Assembly (NCBI GenBank): GCA_021157525.1
Contig: JAGGWK010000048.1
Span: 1 to 33,836, forward strand
DNA from: Candidatus Cloacimonadota bacterium
GTDB lineage: Bacteria; Cloacimonadota; Cloacimonadia; Cloacimonadales; TCS61
Reading direction: 5' to 3'
DNA: 33,836 nucleotides
Made by a program: the position numbers and the translations under genes. The notes beneath the pieces were generated by a model. The model was not told the DNA's origin. It worked only from the letters and a program-made list of their open reading frames with translations, and ran no database searches. Of the stretch, positions 11,909 through 20,067 are shown one piece after another. Positions within the stretch are counted from its first letter, which is position 1. The number at the start of each line of letters is the position of its first letter.

Positions 11909-11937
11909 TTGACAACAGATTCCCGACAATTTATTTG
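11909..11937 (+). promoter_or_regulatory. Putative promoter of the lipid/sugar operon
   Basis: Consensus TTGACA (11909-11914), then 17 bases and TATTTG (11932-11937), the best -10 of the set at three matches. It is 62 bases before the chosen ATG at 11977. Confidence 0.45.
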
Positions 11938-11976
11938 GAAACGTTTTCAAGTAACAGATTAGAGTTTAGAGGGTTT

Positions 11977-13008
11977 ATGAAAAAAATTTCCTTTGGAATT
12001 ATCGGATGTGGACGAATCTCGAAAAATCATTGTGAAGCAATCGCACGCATTGAAGGGGCAGAAATCATTGCCTGTTGCGACATCATAAAAGAACGTGCTG
12101 AAGAAGCAGCCAGGAATTATTCTATCGCAAATTACTATACCGATCATATGGATATGCTGAAAGCCGAAACCTTGGATGCAGTGATCATCTGCACCCCCAG
12201 CGGTATTCATCCGCGTATCGGCATAGATGTTGCAAATCACGGCATTCCGGTGGTTACCGAGAAGCCGATGGCTATTTCCCTGAAGGATGCAGACGCCCTT
12301 GTTCACGCCTGTGATATGAATAAGGTGCACCTTTTCGTGGTGAAACAAAACCGCCTTAATCCTGCAATCCAGCTTTTGAAAAAAGCTATCGACAAAGGCC
12401 GCTTCGGCCGCCTCTTCATGGCCAATGCAACTGTTCGCTGGACCCGCCCCCAGGCATACTATGATCTAGCAAAATGGCGTGGCACCTGGGAATTTGACGG
12501 CGGCGCCTTCATGAATCAGGCATCCCACTACTTCGATTTGATTCAGTGGCTCATGGGGCCGGTGGAATCGGTGATGGCTTATACAGGCACAATAAATCAC
12601 CGCATCGAAGCCGAAGACCAGGGAGCTGGCCTCATCCAGTTCCGTAACGGCGCCATCGGCGTGGTGGAAGTGACGATGAACACCTTCCCGAAAAATTACG
12701 AAGGCTCAATCACCATCATGGGTGAAAACGGCACTGTGAAAATCGGTGGCATGGCTGTGAACAAAGTTGAGCACTGGGAATTTAAAGACTACGATGACGA
12801 CGATAAACTGATAGAGCAGAGTGACACAAATCCCTCCAGCGTCTATGGCTATGGGCATCAGGGATTTTTACAAAATGTCGTGGACGTATTACAGGGCATC
12901 GCAGAACCCAATACCGATGGTCGGAGCGGGCGCAAATCTCTGGAAATCATCCTGGGAATGTACGAATCGGCCAAATGTGGGAAAAAAGTGGCATTACCAC
13001 TGAAATGA
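11977..13008 (+). CDS. Gfo/Idh/MocA oxidoreductase, possible UDP-sugar 3-dehydrogenase
   Basis: A 343-residue NAD(P)-dependent dehydrogenase. The N-terminal Rossmann domain starts MKKISFGIIGCGRISKNH, with the GxGxxxxxH-like pattern, and has the family's EKP motif (TEKPMAI) near residue 93. The C-terminal domain carries WRGTWEFDGGAFMNQASHYF, whose layout resembles WlbA/WbpB-type UDP-N-acetylglucosaminuronate 3-dehydrogenases; a sugar-nucleotide substrate is therefore plausible but unproven. The ATG at 11977 follows AGAGGG; an in-frame TTG at 11935 lies within the putative -10 and is unlikely. It heads the operon containing the ether-lipid genes, ending 19 bases before the GGPP synthase gene. 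It is not an archaeal-type glycerol-1-phosphate dehydrogenase. Confidence 0.85.
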   Translation: MKKISFGIIGCGRISKNHCEAIARIEGAEIIACCDIIKERAEEAARNYSIANYYTDHMDMLKAETLDAVIICTPSGIHPRIGIDVANHGIPVVTEKPMAISLKDADALVHACDMNKVHLFVVKQNRLNPAIQLLKKAIDKGRFGRLFMANATVRWTRPQAYYDLAKWRGTWEFDGGAFMNQASHYFDLIQWLMGPVESVMAYTGTINHRIEAEDQGAGLIQFRNGAIGVVEVTMNTFPKNYEGSITIMGENGTVKIGGMAVNKVEHWEFKDYDDDDKLIEQSDTNPSSVYGYGHQGFLQNVVDVLQGIAEPNTDGRSGRKSLEIILGMYESAKCGKKVALPLK

Positions 13009-13027: not shown

Positions 13028-13915
13028 TTGTTAGTCCAAGAATATTTCAAAAGTCGTTCAGGAATCCTGGAGAAAGCGCTGGATGCATATCTTCAGCCTG
13101 TTTCAGATACGCCATCGAGGGTATTGGAAGCGATGCGCTACAGCGTATTCGCCGGTGGCAAGCGCATCCGTCCTATGCTGTTCTTCGCCACCTACGAAAT
13201 GCTTATCGGCAGAAAAAACCTACGCCGGCTGGAACGTCTTCTTCCGGTAGCCTGTGCCCTGGAATTTATCCATACAGCATCTCTCATCCATGATGATCTG
13301 CCGTCGGTTGATAATTCTGCAGAGCGCCGGGGAAAAGCAGCCTGCCATGTAAAGTTTGACGAGGCAACAGCCATCCTGGCTGGCGATGCTCTGATCACCC
13401 TCTCCATTGAATGTCTTACCTACATCAAAAAGAGTGCTTCTGCGGTGAAATGCATCGGCATCCTTACCCGGGCGATGTCCACACGAGGCATGATCGGCGG
13501 TCAGGCAGTGGACATTCTCTCTGCCAACAAAAAGATTAACATCACCACTCTTCGCTACATCCATATCAAAAAGACCGGTGCCCTGTTACAGGCAGCTGTA
13601 GAGCTGGCCTGCGCTCTCTATGATGCAGAGGAAAACCTCACCATCACCTTGAGCAACTTTGCACTGAACATCGGATTGGCATATCAGATTGTAGATGACA
13701 TCCTGGATGAAGTGGGTAGTTTTGAAGTTCTGGGCAAGGAGCCGGGAGAAGATTCTCGCAATCAAAAAGCAACCTATCCTTCGCTTCTGGGACTGGAGAA
13801 AGCCAAAAAGACGGCTGAGAAATTGCTTCGGGATTCCTATAATCTCATCAAGAACATACCTCAAAACGACATCATGATAGAATTTGTGAACATGGTGAAG
13901 GAACGTCTTCCCTAA
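13028..13915 (+). CDS. Short-chain polyprenyl diphosphate synthase, probably GGPP synthase
   Basis: Condenses isopentenyl diphosphate with allylic diphosphates. The 295-residue sequence has FAGGKRIRPML (41-51), the first Asp-rich motif DDLPSVD (89-95, four residues between the pair and the last Asp, bacterial type), RRGK, and the second Asp-rich motif DDILD (223-227). The residue five before the first motif is Ala84 with Ser85 next, as in the bacterial type II GGPP synthase CrtE; E. coli FPP synthase has Tyr there. A small residue leaves room for C20, so GGPP is the likely product. The start is TTG at 13028, with GAGG six bases upstream. Four bases separate it from the UbiA gene, whose enzyme would use GGPP. 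Confidence 0.9.
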   Translation: MLVQEYFKSRSGILEKALDAYLQPVSDTPSRVLEAMRYSVFAGGKRIRPMLFFATYEMLIGRKNLRRLERLLPVACALEFIHTASLIHDDLPSVDNSAERRGKAACHVKFDEATAILAGDALITLSIECLTYIKKSASAVKCIGILTRAMSTRGMIGGQAVDILSANKKINITTLRYIHIKKTGALLQAAVELACALYDAEENLTITLSNFALNIGLAYQIVDDILDEVGSFEVLGKEPGEDSRNQKATYPSLLGLEKAKKTAEKLLRDSYNLIKNIPQNDIMIEFVNMVKERLP

Positions 13916-13919
13916 AGCA

Positions 13920-14729
13920 ATGTCATACCTTACAATTTTGCGACCGGTAAACTGTTTGTTTACCTTGCTATGCGCATTTGCCGGAGCCTTTTACCATGCT
14001 TCGGCAATTGTCTTTTCTCCCGCTTTGGCAGCAGCCCTCTCAGCTGGATTCATCGCCGCGTCCGGCTATGTGATAAACGACGTCTTTGACGTGGATATAG
14101 ACCGCATAAACCGCCCGGGCAGACCTCTTCCGGCAGGACGCATCTCCCTGAATGCCGCCACCAGATACGCCCTTTTGCTGGCTGTGGCAGGCTTGATTTC
14201 TGCAGCTTTTACCAGGCAATGGTATTGCATGGCCATCGCTGTGTTCAATAGCCTTTTGCTCTACGCCTATGCCCGCTGGCTCAAAGCCGCACCCCTCATC
14301 GGCAACCTGGTGGTAGCCTATGCCGCAGCTTCGGTGTTTGTCTTTGGCGGACTGGCAAATCATAACCTCATTCCCAGCCTCGGTTTCAGCTATTTTGCTT
14401 TTTTTTATACCCTGGTGCGTGAGCTGGTGAAGGATGCTCAGGATATCGAAGGTGATACAGCCCTGCACGCCCGCACTCTAGCCATCCTGATAGGAGAAAA
14501 ACCCACTCTCATCCTGGCCATGCTCCCTGCCTTAGCAATCATCGCCGGACCATGGTTTGTCCCTCTGAAACCCACAGCCACTCTATTGATCATCGGCCTC
14601 ACAGGCATCCCGCCTGTATTGGCCCTGTTGCTCCTGCTACGGCACAACACAAAGAAAACCTTTGCCTTTATTTCTACCTTTCTCAAATTTGAGATGTTTT
14701 TAGTTTTAATATTAGTATGGATAGGATAA
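13920..14729 (+). CDS. UbiA-family prenyltransferase, probable digeranylgeranylglyceryl phosphate synthase
   Basis: DGGGP synthase adds a second geranylgeranyl chain to geranylgeranylglyceryl phosphate to give unsaturated archaetidic acid. The 269 residues form about eight or nine membrane helices. The first Asp-rich motif is NDVFDVDIDRINRPGRPLP (53-71); the second, VRELVKDAQDIEGD (166-179), has the REL-KD-DIEGD pattern typical of archaeal DGGGP synthases and their FCB homologues, rather than of MenA or UbiA proper. Assignment is strengthened by its position between GGPP synthase and GGGP synthase genes. The ATG at 13920 is four bases after the upstream stop and five bases lie before the next ATG. 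Chlorophyll or other lipid prenyltransferases are less likely alternatives. Confidence 0.85.
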   Translation: MSYLTILRPVNCLFTLLCAFAGAFYHASAIVFSPALAAALSAGFIAASGYVINDVFDVDIDRINRPGRPLPAGRISLNAATRYALLLAVAGLISAAFTRQWYCMAIAVFNSLLLYAYARWLKAAPLIGNLVVAYAAASVFVFGGLANHNLIPSLGFSYFAFFYTLVRELVKDAQDIEGDTALHARTLAILIGEKPTLILAMLPALAIIAGPWFVPLKPTATLLIIGLTGIPPVLALLLLLRHNTKKTFAFISTFLKFEMFLVLILVWIG

Positions 14730-14733
14730 CAAA

Positions 14734-15483
14734 ATGAAAGTGTATGAGCTTCTTGAGAAAAAACGCCGCAAACAGGCGAGCTATTTTTGTTTGCTAGACC
14801 CCGACAGGCTCACGGCCAAACAGGCGGTACAGAGAGCTGCCGCATGTGAAGAAAATGGCGCCGACGGGCTGCTGGTCGGCGGTAGTATCATGATCAATAA
14901 TTCCTTTGAGGAAAACCTGAGATTGATCAGTCAGGCGGTTTCCATTCCCGTCATCATCTTTCCCGGCATCTTCAATTTCGTCTCCCCATGGGCAGACGCC
15001 ATCCTGTTGCTCTCGGTAATCAGCAGCCGCAACCCACAGATGCTTATCGGTGAACAGGTGCGGGCTGCACCCCAGATAAAGCATCACAACCTCGAAGCTA
15101 TCGGCACCGGATACATGATCATCGAGGGGGGAAACAGCACTTCGGTGCTCTTCATGAGCGACAGTCAGCCGATACCCCGCACCAAAGATGACATCGCCGT
15201 TGCTCACGCTCTGGCTGGCCAGTACCTGGGTATGCGCTGCATCTACATGGATGCAGGTAGCGGAGCCGCACAGCCCATACCTGACTCCATGATCTCCAGC
15301 GTCCGCCAAAACATCTCTCTGCCACTGATTGTTGGCGGCGGGATCCGCACGCCAGAAGTCGCTCACCAAAAAGCCCTGGCCGGAGCTGATTTCATCGTTA
15401 CCGGTGACATCCTGGAAAGGAATTTTGATCCATCCCTGGTGCGCGCTTTCTCAGATGCTATTCATAGCGTTTCACGTTCATGA
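14734..15483 (+). CDS. Geranylgeranylglyceryl phosphate synthase (GGGPS/PcrB family)
   Basis: Joins sn-glycerol-1-phosphate to geranylgeranyl diphosphate, forming the first ether bond of archaeal-type lipids. The 249-residue TIM-barrel shows all family blocks: CLLDPD (19-24), LLVGGS (46-51), FPG (76-78), SSRNPQ (98-102), EAIGTGYMIIEGG (121-133), YMDAGSGA (171-178), VGGGIRTPE (200-208) and FIVTGD (220-225). Phosphate-binding glycine loops are intact. The overall form agrees with group II GGGPS, found in some euryarchaea and in Bacteroidetes-type bacteria. The next gene overlaps it by four bases (ATGA). A heptaprenyl-using PcrB as in Bacillus is possible but less likely with a GGPP synthase alongside. 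Confidence 0.93.
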   Translation: MKVYELLEKKRRKQASYFCLLDPDRLTAKQAVQRAAACEENGADGLLVGGSIMINNSFEENLRLISQAVSIPVIIFPGIFNFVSPWADAILLLSVISSRNPQMLIGEQVRAAPQIKHHNLEAIGTGYMIIEGGNSTSVLFMSDSQPIPRTKDDIAVAHALAGQYLGMRCIYMDAGSGAAQPIPDSMISSVRQNISLPLIVGGGIRTPEVAHQKALAGADFIVTGDILERNFDPSLVRAFSDAIHSVSRS

Positions 15484-16265
15484 TAGACATCCATACCCAC
15501 ATTATGCCAGCCGTAGATGATGGCTCGCCCGCTGAAGATATCTCTCTGAAGCACCTTGGGATAATGGCTGCCGCCGGAGTAACCGATGTCGTCCTCACAC
15601 CTCACTTCATCCGCGCCGGATACCGTCCACCCCACACAGATCGCCTGGCAAAGCAGGCGGCGCTTCAAAAGGGATGCCAGGCGGCCGGACTTTCCCTCAC
15701 CCTTCATCCGGGTGCCGAAGTATATCTGGATAGTAAAAGCCTGCAGGAAATCAATGAGCATAAGCTGAATATCAACCAAACTTCTTACGTGCTGGTAGAA
15801 ACCGCCATGAGCACCTTTCCTTCGGATCTGTACGAAATTCTGTATCAGCTGGTAAAAGCCGGATATCGCCCCATTCTCGCCCATCCCGAACGATATCAGA
15901 CGGTGATTTCCGATCCGGAACTGGCCCGGGATTTTATGCATCGAAATGTCTATCTACAAATCAATGCCGGCAGCCTTCTGGGACATTATGGCAAGCGCAG
16001 CCAGCAGGCCGCATGGTACCTGCTGGAACATGGATACGCCCACTTTCTGGCATCGGATAATCACTGCCACAGGGATGACTATCCTCTGGCCAAAGGCTGT
16101 GAGCTTATCACCCGACGGATCGACGACCACCTTCCCCGGATACTCACAGAGATCAATCCCCGGAAGATGCTCAACAACGAGCCGATTCCTTATTTTTATC
16201 TGGAACAGACATCTGGCGGTTCAGAAAACTTTTTTCAACGATTCTTCCGCCGAGGTAAATCATGA
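15480..16265 (+). CDS. PHP-domain phosphatase, CpsB/YwqE family
   Basis: A 261-residue metal-dependent phosphoesterase. MIDIHTHIMPAVDDGS gives the first metal ligands (His5, His7) and the acidic DD of the family; further motifs are LTPHF, HPGAEVYLD, LAHPERY, LQINAGSLLGHYG and LASDNH. These are hallmarks of the CpsB/YwqE group, known as protein tyrosine phosphatases of Gram-positive capsule systems; in Gram-negatives substrates are mostly unknown. No cognate BY-kinase lies nearby. It overlaps both neighbours by four bases, directly after the GGGPS gene, so it may act on a phosphorylated lipid or sugar intermediate instead; that is inference. Fold and motifs are clear. Confidence 0.88.
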   Translation: MIDIHTHIMPAVDDGSPAEDISLKHLGIMAAAGVTDVVLTPHFIRAGYRPPHTDRLAKQAALQKGCQAAGLSLTLHPGAEVYLDSKSLQEINEHKLNINQTSYVLVETAMSTFPSDLYEILYQLVKAGYRPILAHPERYQTVISDPELARDFMHRNVYLQINAGSLLGHYGKRSQQAAWYLLEHGYAHFLASDNHCHRDDYPLAKGCELITRRIDDHLPRILTEINPRKMLNNEPIPYFYLEQTSGGSENFFQRFFRRGKS

Positions 16266-17227
16266 GTAAATCGATTTTAATCACTGGCATCAGCGGCTTT
16301 ATCGGCCGAAATGTAGCAGCGGCGCTGCTGAAAAAAAACACCCTCACTGCGCTGATACGCCCGGGAACCGATCCTCGGCGCATCGCACAGTTCAAAGACT
16401 CTGTCACCTTCGTGCCCATAGACCTCACAGACATCCCTGCTCTCACCGCCTATTTACAGGATGCATCCTTTGATGCCATCGTACATATTGGTGCACTGCG
16501 AGGTGGAAGAAAATACCCCAGAAGTGCCTTTTTTGATGCCAACGTAAACGCTACCGAGCAGTTGGCAATTCATGCCAAAGAGACTGGCGCTCAACTTCTG
16601 TTTTGTTCATCTGTAGGGGTTTTGGGCGCCATTCCCAAAGAATTACCGGCATCCTCAAAATCTCCCAGGCAACAGGATAATTATTATCATTTCACCAAAA
16701 TCCAGGCGGAGAAAATCATCCAGAATTATGTACTCTACGGCCTCAATGCCGCCATTATCCGCCCGGCCATCACCTATGGCCCGGGAGACCGGGGCTTTCC
16801 CTACACCCTCACAAAATTGGTGGATAAGAAACTTCTGGTTCTGCCAAAAACCGATGTCATCATTCATCTCACCAATGTGGAGCTACTGGCCGAAGCCTTT
16901 GTGAAACTGGTGGACAACCCCAGCCCTCCCGGCTCGGAATTTATCATTGCAGACAACCACCCGGTTTCCCTTAAAAAACTGGCGGATTTCATCAATCAGG
17001 AACTGCGCGGCAAAGAATACCCTGCATCCAGAAACATAGCTGACAGCTGGTTTTCTCTGGGGGAAAAGATCGCTCGTCTGCTGAAAAATGAACTGTGGAT
17101 TTCCCGCTTTGAATTGATTTCAAAAAGCTGGTATTACGATTCTGATGAGAGTCTGAAGGAACTGAAACATTCGGAAACCATTCCCGGTTTCCGCTCCGTG
17201 ATTCAATGGTATAAAAACAACCGGTAA
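16262..17227 (+). CDS. NAD-dependent epimerase/dehydratase (extended SDR)
   Basis: A 321-residue extended short-chain dehydrogenase. The cofactor loop is GISGFIG (9-15), catalytic Ser is near 115-116 (LLFCSSVGVLG) and the Tyr-X3-Lys pair is Tyr141 to Lys145 in YYHFTK. IRPAITYGPGDRG is the family's substrate-binding segment. Relatives act on nucleotide sugars, on 3-beta-hydroxysteroids and on isoprenoid-derived substrates; the sequence does not decide between them. It overlaps the PHP gene by four bases and is followed seven bases later by a methyltransferase gene. Within the operon it may build or modify a polar head group or reduce an oxo intermediate. Confidence 0.87.
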   Translation: MSKSILITGISGFIGRNVAAALLKKNTLTALIRPGTDPRRIAQFKDSVTFVPIDLTDIPALTAYLQDASFDAIVHIGALRGGRKYPRSAFFDANVNATEQLAIHAKETGAQLLFCSSVGVLGAIPKELPASSKSPRQQDNYYHFTKIQAEKIIQNYVLYGLNAAIIRPAITYGPGDRGFPYTLTKLVDKKLLVLPKTDVIIHLTNVELLAEAFVKLVDNPSPPGSEFIIADNHPVSLKKLADFINQELRGKEYPASRNIADSWFSLGEKIARLLKNELWISRFELISKSWYYDSDESLKELKHSETIPGFRSVIQWYKNNR

Positions 17228-17234
17228 GGAACCT

Positions 17235-18077
17235 ATGGCAATCCCCATTTTACATACCTGGCCTCGTTATTTCGACGATCCTGACGAAGGTTTGGGCTCC
17301 AGTTACGAACGCATCATCATCAACGATTTGCTTGCAAAAATCTGTCGCAGTTTTCCTATCTCCACAGTGCTGGAAGCTCCCGCTTTTGGCTTCACCGGGC
17401 TCTCCGGCATAAACAGTCTGGCACTGGCTCAGGCAGGAAAATCTGTCACACTGCTGGATCATGATGCATCCCGTACGGAGAAAATCGCCGATCTCTGGCG
17501 CTCACTTTCCCTTAATCTGGATGCACAGACGGTGGCGTCCTACGATGTACTTCCCTTTGAAGATAATCAGTTTGACCTCAGCTGGAATTTCTCCGCTCTC
17601 TGGTTTACCGGGAATGTGGAAAAATTTCTTGCCCAACTCACTCGGATTACGCGACGGGTTATTCTGCTCTGCGTGCCGAATCGCAGCGGTTTAGGCTATG
17701 TTTCTCAGGCAATAATGGGCAGGGCGGAGCTGAAATCAGCGCTCAATGAAGAGCATATCAAGGCACAAACCTTTATCCCCATCATGAAAAAACAGGGATG
17801 GAAGTGCATCAAATGGGATTTCATCGATTGCCCTCCATGGCCAGACATCGGTATGCCAAAAGAGAAGTTTCTCTCGCTTTTTGGTTTGCAATGGCTTTTA
17901 CCCACCCGGAAGCCAACACCCATTTCCATCATGGATTATTATCGGGGTGAAGATCCCGAATTTCCCGATGCCATGCGCACTCGTGCCTGGTTAGAACGCA
18001 TGGCGCCGTCGCTTTTCAAACGGTTTTGGGCTCACCATCGTTACTATCTTTTCATCCCGGAGGATCCAGATGCATAA
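17235..18077 (+). CDS. SAM-dependent methyltransferase-like protein
   Basis: A 280-residue class I methyltransferase fold. The motif I region is VLEAPAFGFTGLSGINSLAL (45-64), followed by an acidic strand end LLDHD (73-77); the usual GxGxG loop is degenerate (EAPAFGFTG). LPFEDNQFDLSWNF corresponds to motif IV of Methyltransf_11 proteins. The C-terminal third is rich in Trp, Pro and aromatic residues (CPPWPDIGMP, FWAHHRYYLF) and could bind a hydrophobic substrate. The substrate is unknown. The degenerate motif I leaves open that it binds another ligand. It overlaps the next gene by eight bases, indicating coupling with the flippase-like protein. Confidence 0.75.
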   Translation: MAIPILHTWPRYFDDPDEGLGSSYERIIINDLLAKICRSFPISTVLEAPAFGFTGLSGINSLALAQAGKSVTLLDHDASRTEKIADLWRSLSLNLDAQTVASYDVLPFEDNQFDLSWNFSALWFTGNVEKFLAQLTRITRRVILLCVPNRSGLGYVSQAIMGRAELKSALNEEHIKAQTFIPIMKKQGWKCIKWDFIDCPPWPDIGMPKEKFLSLFGLQWLLPTRKPTPISIMDYYRGEDPEFPDAMRTRAWLERMAPSLFKRFWAHHRYYLFIPEDPDA

Positions 18078-19062
18078 GAGAACTATCAACTGGATTTTCA
18101 GCATCGCGCTGGGATGTTTTTTTCTTTTTCTTTGGTTCAGGATGGTTAATTGGACCGAGTTTATTCAGTATTTCCACCGCTTCAACCTCACGGCAGCCCT
18201 GCTGTTTTCCGGCTTTTATATCCTGGCTTATTTCTTCCGCAGCCTCCGCTGGCGATTGATCCTCAAGCCCATTTATCGGCTAGGTGTAGCTGAATCCTTT
18301 TTTATTTTCATGGCGGGAATGATCATCAATTATCTGGTGCCTATCCGGGCCGGAGAAGTGGCAAAATCGGTGATTTTGAAAAACAAGCATGACGTGCGGA
18401 TATCCCACAGTTTACCCAGCATTCTCATCGATAAGATTTCCGATCTCTTTCCCATCATCCTCATCATGATCCTCATTCCTCTGGTCTCGGTGTCCCTTAA
18501 CAAAACCCTGTTCATCATCATAGGCCTGCTCTTTTTCATCTTCCTTGGTTTTATCCTGTTCCTCTTTTTTGCCGTAAATCATGCCTCCCGGGCTATCGGC
18601 ATGTTGCACAAATTGCTTTTGATTTTCCCCGGAAAGTATCGCACCAAGTTGGGAGAATTTACGGAGAACTTTGTATATGGGATGGCCATAATGCGGGGGC
18701 GTACCGGTGAATACCTGCTGGTCTATCTTCTCACCATCCTTGCGGTGCTATCCGAAGCGGTCTATGTTTATGCCGTTTTCCTGGCCTTTGGCGCTGAGGT
18801 TTCTTACAGTAAAATACTCTTTGGCTATACCCTGATGAACCTTACCTACATCCTTCCTACGCCACCAGCACAAATCGGCTCCAACCAATTTATGTGGGTT
18901 CTTATTTTTTCCCTTGCCCTGGGGATAAACAAAGACCTTACCAGTGCAGCGGTTACCTTCTCACACCTGCTCACTACCCTGTGGATTTTCGCCACGGGAA
19001 GTATTTCTTTACTTGCCATTAAGATAAAGTTTCACAAGCTGGTTACGTTAATAAAAGAATAA
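18070..19062 (+). CDS. Flippase-like integral membrane protein (AglD/YbhN, LPG-synthase TM family)
   Basis: A 330-residue protein with about eight membrane helices. It has the hallmark segments of the UPF0104/lysylphosphatidylglycerol synthase membrane family: FFRSLRWRLILKP near 55, NYLVPIRAGEVAKSVIL near 88-105, and LPTPPAQIGSNQFMW near 265. In MprF the related domain flips a lipid, and archaeal AglD of the same superfamily works with dolichol-linked sugar, so transport or processing of a lipid intermediate is a fair guess. Its start lies inside the methyltransferase gene. The MoxR gene starts 15 bases later. Placement at the end of an ether-lipid gene set suggests it moves a product across the inner membrane. 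Confidence 0.85.
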   Translation: MHKRTINWIFSIALGCFFLFLWFRMVNWTEFIQYFHRFNLTAALLFSGFYILAYFFRSLRWRLILKPIYRLGVAESFFIFMAGMIINYLVPIRAGEVAKSVILKNKHDVRISHSLPSILIDKISDLFPIILIMILIPLVSVSLNKTLFIIIGLLFFIFLGFILFLFFAVNHASRAIGMLHKLLLIFPGKYRTKLGEFTENFVYGMAIMRGRTGEYLLVYLLTILAVLSEAVYVYAVFLAFGAEVSYSKILFGYTLMNLTYILPTPPAQIGSNQFMWVLIFSLALGINKDLTSAAVTFSHLLTTLWIFATGSISLLAIKIKFHKLVTLIKE

Positions 19063-19077
19063 AAGGCTGTAACAAAA

Positions 19078-20067
19078 ATGGACAAAGATACTATCGAAAT
19101 TCTGGAAAATTTAGCCACCATAAAAGATGCAATAACCGATGAAATCGGTAAGGTCATCGTCGGACAGGATGCAGTAATTGAACAGTTTCTCATAGCCCTC
19201 TTTGCCGGAGGTCACTGTTTGCTGGAAGGAGTTCCCGGACTGGCTAAAACCCTGCTCATCTCCACCATGTCAAAAGCCCTCTCCCTCAGCTTCAGTCGCA
19301 TACAGTTTACTCCGGATCTTATGCCCTCAGACATTACCGGTACAGACATCCTGGCAGAAAACAAAGCCACGGGAAAACGCTATTTCGAATTTATCAAAGG
19401 CCCCGTTTTTGCCAATATCATATTGGCAGATGAGATAAACAGAACCCCGCCAAAAACCCAATCTGCTCTACTGCAGGCGATGCAGGAATATCAGGTAACG
19501 GCAGGAAACCAGACCTTTGAGTTGGCCAAGCCCTTTCTGGTATTTGCCACACAAAATCCCATCGAGCAGGAGGGTACCTATCCACTTCCGGAAGCACAAC
19601 TGGACCGTTTTATGTTTAATATCACCATCGACTACCCCAGTTATGAAGAAGAAAAGCAGATAGTACAGCGCACCACCGGCGGATCTGCATCCAGTGTAAA
19701 ACCGGTGCTCTCTGTGGATAAAATACTGGCAGCACAACAAGCCATACGGCAGATTCCGGTGAGTGATCATGTGTTGGATTTTGCTGTTTCTCTAGCTCGG
19801 TCAACCAGACCCCATAGTCCCCAGACCCCCGAGCTGGTAAACAAATGGGTCAATTGGGGAGCCGGGCCGAGGGCATCGCAATATCTGGTGCTTGCCGCCA
19901 AAACCAGGGCAGCATTGCACAACCGCCTCACACCGTCGGAAGAAGATGTGATACAGGTAGCAACTATCGTCCTGCAGCATCGGGTATTGATCTCTTTTGC
20001 TGCAGAAGCTGAGGGATTACATGCGAAAGATGTTATTGACAAAATAATTGCCTCAAAGAATAAATAG
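19078..20067 (+). CDS. MoxR-family AAA+ ATPase
   Basis: A 329-residue MoxR ATPase, thought to act as a chaperone for assembly of protein complexes. Walker A is GVPGLAKT (51-58), Walker B ILADEINR (114-121) and TPPKTQSALLQAMQEYQ follows; sensor 1 is in FATQNPIEQEGTYPLPEAQ and the arginine finger region is LDRF. The C-terminal lid domain is complete. MoxR genes usually sit beside DUF58 and von Willebrand A-domain partners; none is present here. The ATG at 19078 has AAAGG 11 bases upstream and lies 15 bases after the flippase-like gene, so it is probably the last gene of that operon. No clear hairpin terminator follows. Confidence 0.92.
   Translation: MDKDTIEILENLATIKDAITDEIGKVIVGQDAVIEQFLIALFAGGHCLLEGVPGLAKTLLISTMSKALSLSFSRIQFTPDLMPSDITGTDILAENKATGKRYFEFIKGPVFANIILADEINRTPPKTQSALLQAMQEYQVTAGNQTFELAKPFLVFATQNPIEQEGTYPLPEAQLDRFMFNITIDYPSYEEEKQIVQRTTGGSASSVKPVLSVDKILAAQQAIRQIPVSDHVLDFAVSLARSTRPHSPQTPELVNKWVNWGAGPRASQYLVLAAKTRAALHNRLTPSEEDVIQVATIVLQHRVLISFAAEAEGLHAKDVIDKIIASKNK

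Follow-up and report, generated by a model that had tools for sequence, protein, structure and literature searches.

The window, i.e., the whole 33,836-nucleotide stretch of DNA analyzed here, lies on a contig of a 2.23-Mb genome (98.5% complete, 1.35% contaminated) assigned to Candidatus Cloacimonadota, in accordance with the diderm, FCB-type host that the original prediction had derived from the letters of the DNA alone. It carries three adjacent, co-directional ether-lipid genes coding for a GGPP synthase (GGPPS), a DGGGP synthase (DGGGPS) of the UbiA superfamily and a GGGP synthase (GGGPS) (Table 1). The two intergenic gaps are exactly 4 bases each, and the GGGPS gene overlaps the gene that follows by 4 bases. 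The core observation of the original prediction, namely these three genes with four-base gaps, was thereby confirmed with the ORFs exactly where it had placed them, and domain, family and solved-structure searches bore out its three enzyme assignments. The Pfam matches of the three proteins each covered almost the full length, and the family and structure matches were far beyond chance. Searches of the whole window for RNA families, tRNAs and tandem repeats found none, and promoter-like sites were not more frequent in the window than in shuffled sequences.

Table 1. Features of the ether-lipid locus and its flanks (positions in the window).
Feature	Position	Strand	Evidence and remarks
Gfo/Idh/MocA oxidoreductase	11935..13008	+	3q2k 2e-117; upstream neighbor in part of the phylum
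Short-chain polyprenyl diphosphate synthase, predicted type-II GGPP synthase	13028..13915	+	PF00348 2e-55; FARM DDLPSVD, SARM DDILD
UbiA-superfamily prenyltransferase, DGGGP synthase	13920..14729	+	PF01040 2.4e-36; 6m31 1e-42
GGGP synthase, archaeal/Bacteroidetes type	14734..15483	+	PF01884 2.8e-43; TIGR01769 over cut-off
CpsB/CapC-type PHP-domain phosphatase	15480..16265	+	PF19567 6e-49; kept where GGGPS is absent
NAD-dependent epimerase/SDR (HpnA-like)	16262..17227	+	PF01370; kept without the pair
Class I SAM methyltransferase	17235..18077	+	PF08241; 105/125 genomes, pair-less ones included
Flippase-like membrane protein (LPG_synthase_TM / TIGR00374)	18070..19062	+	PF03706 4e-37; TIGR00374 over cut-off; kept without the pair
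MoxR-type AAA ATPase, end of conserved gene order	19078..20067	+	PF07726 1e-62; synteny

The possibility that the downstream CpsB, SDR, methyltransferase and flippase genes serve specifically in head-group formation or transport of the ether lipid was considered and rejected, because the whole run persists in genomes without the DGGGPS/GGGPS pair and the methyltransferase occurs in 105 of the 125 genomes of the phylum; the tie of these genes, and of the MoxR gene, to ether lipids is positional only. The Gfo/Idh/MocA gene is found just upstream of GGPPS in the family of the window and in some others. Among solved structures its product is by far closest to 3q2k, taken here as WlbA, a sugar-nucleotide dehydrogenase, and many pair-bearing loci lack the gene, so that it is unlikely to be the missing G1P dehydrogenase; the match suggests a role in surface polysaccharide synthesis.

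Relation to the Known Cloacimonetes Gene Cluster

An archaeal-type ether-lipid core is already known in kind for this phylum, since the NIOZ-UU3 contig (L118) in our genome collection, which also includes a contig of NIOZ-UU2 (L149), has the same cluster in the order GGPPS-DGGGPS-GGGPS-CpsB. Villanueva et al. (2020; PMC7852524) describe GGGPS and DGGGPS genes co-localized in four Black Sea MAGs of Ca. Cloacimonetes, NIOZ-UU3 among them, and report that the recombinant enzymes formed GGGP in vitro and, in E. coli, unsaturated PG-archaeol, the GGGPS expression construct having been corrected against NIOZ-UU3. With the co-localized pair and its biochemistry already published, the novelty is much lower than the original prediction had implied. 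They also report geranylgeranyl reductases and a lack of CarS and egsA/araM (PMC7852524). The genome studied here shares with the Black Sea MAGs the phylum, the absence of egsA/araM and CarS and the presence of a geranylgeranyl reductase and of bacterial lipid genes, and with the NIOZ-UU3 contig the gene order, with GGPPS in front of the pair and CpsB behind it. However, it belongs to another genus, and its proteins are 53% (GGPPS), 41% (DGGGPS) and 59% (GGGPS) identical to those of NIOZ-UU3.

Identity of the Three Enzymes

Type-II GGPPS are marked by small residues at positions -4 and -5 and by a two-residue, Pro-containing insertion in the first Asp-rich motif (PMC9385802, PMC7261888). Both marks were found in the synthase of the window, which has Ala at -5 and Ser at -4, followed by a Pro-containing first Asp motif of 7 residues. 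Read from these two residues and one motif, the protein is predicted to be a GGPPS and not an FPP synthase, while its NCBIfam label would be farnesyl diphosphate synthase (NF045485, 298 bits vs. a cut-off of 275). The genome encodes two short-chain synthases, the second of which has Tyr at -5, the FPP pattern (PMC7261888, which refers to Ohnuma 1996). The simplest reading is a division of labor, in which the window enzyme is of the GGPP type and the other of the FPP type.

The UbiA protein carries the motifs NDVFDVDID and RELVKDAQDIEGD, that is, both Asp-rich motifs by which a DGGGPS is recognized (NDxxDxxxD and RExxKDxxDxxGD), and its residues N53, D54, D57, D61, R167, E168, K171, D175 and D179 were invariant in 21 sequences. 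The best solved structure was the M. jannaschii DGGGPS (6m31, E-value in Table 1), as compared to 1e-9 for chlorophyll synthase. The scores for DGGGPS-type equivalogs (PRK12882, 193 vs. 296 bits; PRK12884, 185 vs. 269 bits) fell short of cut-offs that are naming thresholds and not biochemical features. A possible grouping with the MenA/UbiA quinone enzymes, which the original prediction had named as speaking against it, was checked in a tree that took in M. jannaschii DGGGPS, E. coli UbiA, MenA, CyoE, Poribacteria sequences and UbiA paralogues from within the phylum. The window protein was instead placed among the Cloacimonadota DGGGPS, in one group with that of NIOZ-UU3 (support 82/94), in a tree in which several outgroup branches are long and which does not fix the deep order or the position of the M. 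jannaschii protein.

The third protein passes the curated cut-offs for GGGPS (TIGR01769, 212 vs. 161.6 bits; NF003198, 278 vs. 247 bits), and its structure matches (4mm1, 3e-52; 4jej, 5e-52; PcrB, 1e-9) identify it as the archaeal/Bacteroidetes type and not the PcrB type; by sequence it is a GGGPS with the corresponding predicted activity. Activity with G1P was shown for a Black Sea Cloacimonetes homologue only (PMC7852524), the NIOZ-UU3 copy being 59% identical to the window GGGPS. The window proteins resemble 6m31 (M. jannaschii), 4mm1 (M. thermautotrophicus) and 4jej (F. johnsoniae) in family, catalytic motifs and near full-length alignment, whereas the host here is a bacterium that has genes for fatty-acyl lipids too. 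Unlike 4mm1 and 4jej, the window GGGPS has Asp for Glu in the [E/D]AGSGA stretch, as does that of NIOZ-UU3. Like the PcrB/AraM system of B. subtilis, the locus gives a bacterium a step that forms a prenyl ether of glycerol phosphate, but PcrB is a distant match to the window GGGPS and AraM is absent from the genome. To our knowledge, the PcrB pathway of B. subtilis has no DGGGPS step.

Distribution of the Gene Pair in the Phylum

Among 125 genomes of the phylum, 67 have GGGPS, 66 have DGGGPS and 66 have both; DGGGPS without GGGPS was found in none. The DGGGPS count leaves out weak matches to other UbiA proteins. In 60 of the 66 pairs both genes are on the same contig and strand, DGGGPS first, with 2-262 bp between the matched stretches. 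Among the others, the pair is on different contigs in G055, G059 and G060, well inside at least one of the contigs, while G073, G095 and G119 include contig-edge cases, and in G073 GGGPS starts 4 bases behind DGGGPS. GGPPS directly precedes DGGGPS in nearly all loci examined, and the catalytic residues of the pair's enzymes are invariant across the phylum.

About 50 genomes of family f2, many of them more than 95% complete, have neither DGGGPS nor GGGPS. In eight f2 loci the order GGPPS-CpsB-SDR-methyltransferase-flippase-MoxR is kept with nothing between GGPPS and CpsB, only a few bases being present in the place of the pair (in L193 the gap between the matched stretches is 6 bases). The GGPPS homologues of pair-less loci had lost Asp residues in both Asp-rich motifs in 8/8 complete sequences (L193:6432-7313 of genome G001, L194, L195, L196, L200, L202, L203, L204) vs. 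0/40 pair-bearing genomes, a comparison set of 46 rows with some duplicates, all of which keep these residues. In each of the eight, Met or Lys takes the place of the third Asp of the first motif, and the second motif has a residue other than Asp at its fifth position; a ninth, partial sequence, from family f4, shows Asn at one or both of the Asp positions that open the second motif. Genome G001 has an intact FPP synthase with Tyr at -5 elsewhere (L247:18659-19558), and in the 1.8 Mb read of its 2.25 Mb neither a geranylgeranyl reductase nor the Gfo/Idh/MocA gene was found.

A different UbiA-family protein, with the motifs NDYFDVESD and EEIAADxxDMxGD, was seen in a few genomes of the pair-less family (L220, L221, L222), G048 having two tandem copies, one of them apparently truncated.

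Discussion

Taken as a group, the three genes very probably form a dedicated unit for the synthesis of an archaeal-type isoprenoid ether-lipid core in a Cloacimonadota bacterium. The first enzyme would form GGPP from IPP and an allylic substrate, either FPP or a shorter one; GGGPS would couple one GGPP to glycerol phosphate, and the UbiA enzyme would attach the second chain, giving DGGGP (unsaturated archaetidic acid). For the product named in the original prediction, the word unsaturated is not required, because the genome encodes a geranylgeranyl reductase: the genome-wide search that had been proposed for this enzyme returned a single gene clearly over the cut-off (TIGR02032, 221.8 vs. 158.8 bits), whereas the one proposed for CDP-archaeol synthase, CarS, gave no PF01864 match in the genome. 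The bacterial lipid genes expected alongside were indeed present, in the form of CdsA and two matched PlsY homologues. Following this, we propose that the single geranylgeranyl reductase, encoded elsewhere, may saturate the chains and that the bacterial CdsA may stand in for the missing CarS, feeding ordinary head-group enzymes, and that the product would sit in a mixed membrane together with fatty-acyl lipids. What the sequences show directly is the identity of the genes, their catalytic motifs and adjacency, their kinship with those of NIOZ-UU3 and the pattern of joint absence and decay in the phylum; activity in the host organism, saturation of the product and its head group are what we infer, and archaeol-type lipids beside ordinary lipids in the host are plausible. 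We found no published account of the lipids of a cultured Cloacimonadota bacterium.

Archaeal-type enzymes in a bacterium always warrant a contamination check, but the idea that the contig is archaeal DNA misplaced in a bacterial bin, or was transferred recently, can practically be dismissed: it is refuted by the phylum-wide synteny, the same genes in the same flanking order being found in many independent genomes; GC content shows no break across the genes (0.45-0.53), the neighboring genes are bacterial and the closest relatives found are all from Cloacimonadota. It is also very unlikely that the UbiA enzyme serves a quinone or another acceptor while the product of GGGPS is a minor, PcrB-like lipid. 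Such a role could be argued from the fact that it is the sole UbiA-family gene found in the genome, so that any quinone pathway present must use it, and from the curated DGGGPS equivalog scores that fall short. Against it, DGGGPS leads the structure matches by more than 30 orders of magnitude, the protein groups apart from E. coli UbiA, MenA and CyoE, DGGGPS in the phylum always occurs with GGGPS and mostly next to it, and homologues yielded PG-archaeol in E. coli (as described in PMC7852524).

The glycerol backbone is a different matter, in which the alternative is a variant of the dedicated ether-lipid unit and does not exclude it. No G1P dehydrogenase (EgsA/AraM) over the model cut-off was found in the 125 genomes of the phylum. 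Of two matches to the model in the genome studied here, one reads as an iron alcohol dehydrogenase and the other as AroB; G1P-dehydrogenase-like matches in G061, G039 and G040 were rejected as candidates, all three genomes being without GGGPS and those of G061 and G039 looking like GldA-type glycerol dehydrogenases. The strongest matches to the model in the phylum look like glycerol dehydrogenases and come from genomes without GGGPS; those in L205 and L206 are full-length but weak and GldA-like. As far as can be recognized from sequence, the genome thus has no G1P source, a result that the original prediction had itself named as speaking against it. Villanueva et al. describe the same lack of egsA/araM and argue that it is not fatal, their GGGPS also taking G3P (PMC7852524). 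The unit might therefore build an archaeal-type ether lipid on bacterial G3P, which GGGPS would use because no G1P source exists, leaving the membrane mixed in chain chemistry but homochiral. We regard this as a real possibility, though somewhat less probable than its opposite: G1P is the strongly preferred substrate of archaeal-type enzymes, and E. coli with archaeal genes and without araM still made G1P lipids (PMC7852524, PMC13400652), so that a hidden G1P source in bacteria is likely.

What the present analysis adds is evidence, from comparison across the phylum, that the three genes function together and were lost in part of it; in the main-text passages of PMC7852524 considered here, neither relatives that cleanly lack the pair nor a decay of the adjacent GGPPS is described. 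Asp loss in GGPPS where the pair is absent would be expected if the job of this enzyme is to feed the pair. The gene order shared with and without the pair, together with Asp residues kept only with it, supports one functional unit and argues against a recent transfer into a single species, and the pair-less relatives with the shared order indicate that the trait is dispensable. The trio occupies the same position in several families of the same order and in the more distant families f12 and f13, so that loss in f2 would be more parsimonious than repeated gain; the decay was seen mainly in one family and may be a single event. We lean slightly towards a phylum in which some lineages have archaeal-type ether lipids and others do not, f2 having lost the pair cleanly and its GGPPS having subsequently turned into a catalytically crippled relic or acquired another role. 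If this is true, mixed membranes could be studied in this phylum by a natural comparison of lineages with and without them, and the carriers would have either an unrecognized G1P source or archaeal-type lipids based on G3P. Bacteria able to make archaeal-type lipids bear on the origin of the lipid divide.

Outside Cloacimonadota, GGGPS followed by a CpsB-type PHP phosphatase gene, with no DGGGPS nearby, was observed in contigs of KSB1, Calditrichota and Latescibacterota (the GGGPS-CpsB contigs outside the phylum being L128, L131, L138, L142, L144, L145, L162, L163, L174, L179, L184 and L186).

Bacterial co-localization of DGGGPS and GGGPS seemed restricted to Cloacimonetes in 2020, according to Villanueva et al. 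(PMC7852524). In a looser sense the proximity of the two genes is no longer confined to that phylum, Poribacteria being the second: in 15 Poribacteria contigs (L126:6790-9714, L124, L125, L129, L134-L137, L139-L141, L148, L160, L165 and L169) DGGGPS precedes GGGPS by about 1.4-1.7 kb, both genes being on one strand, and in L126 the gene between them reads as a SpoU-type RNA methyltransferase.
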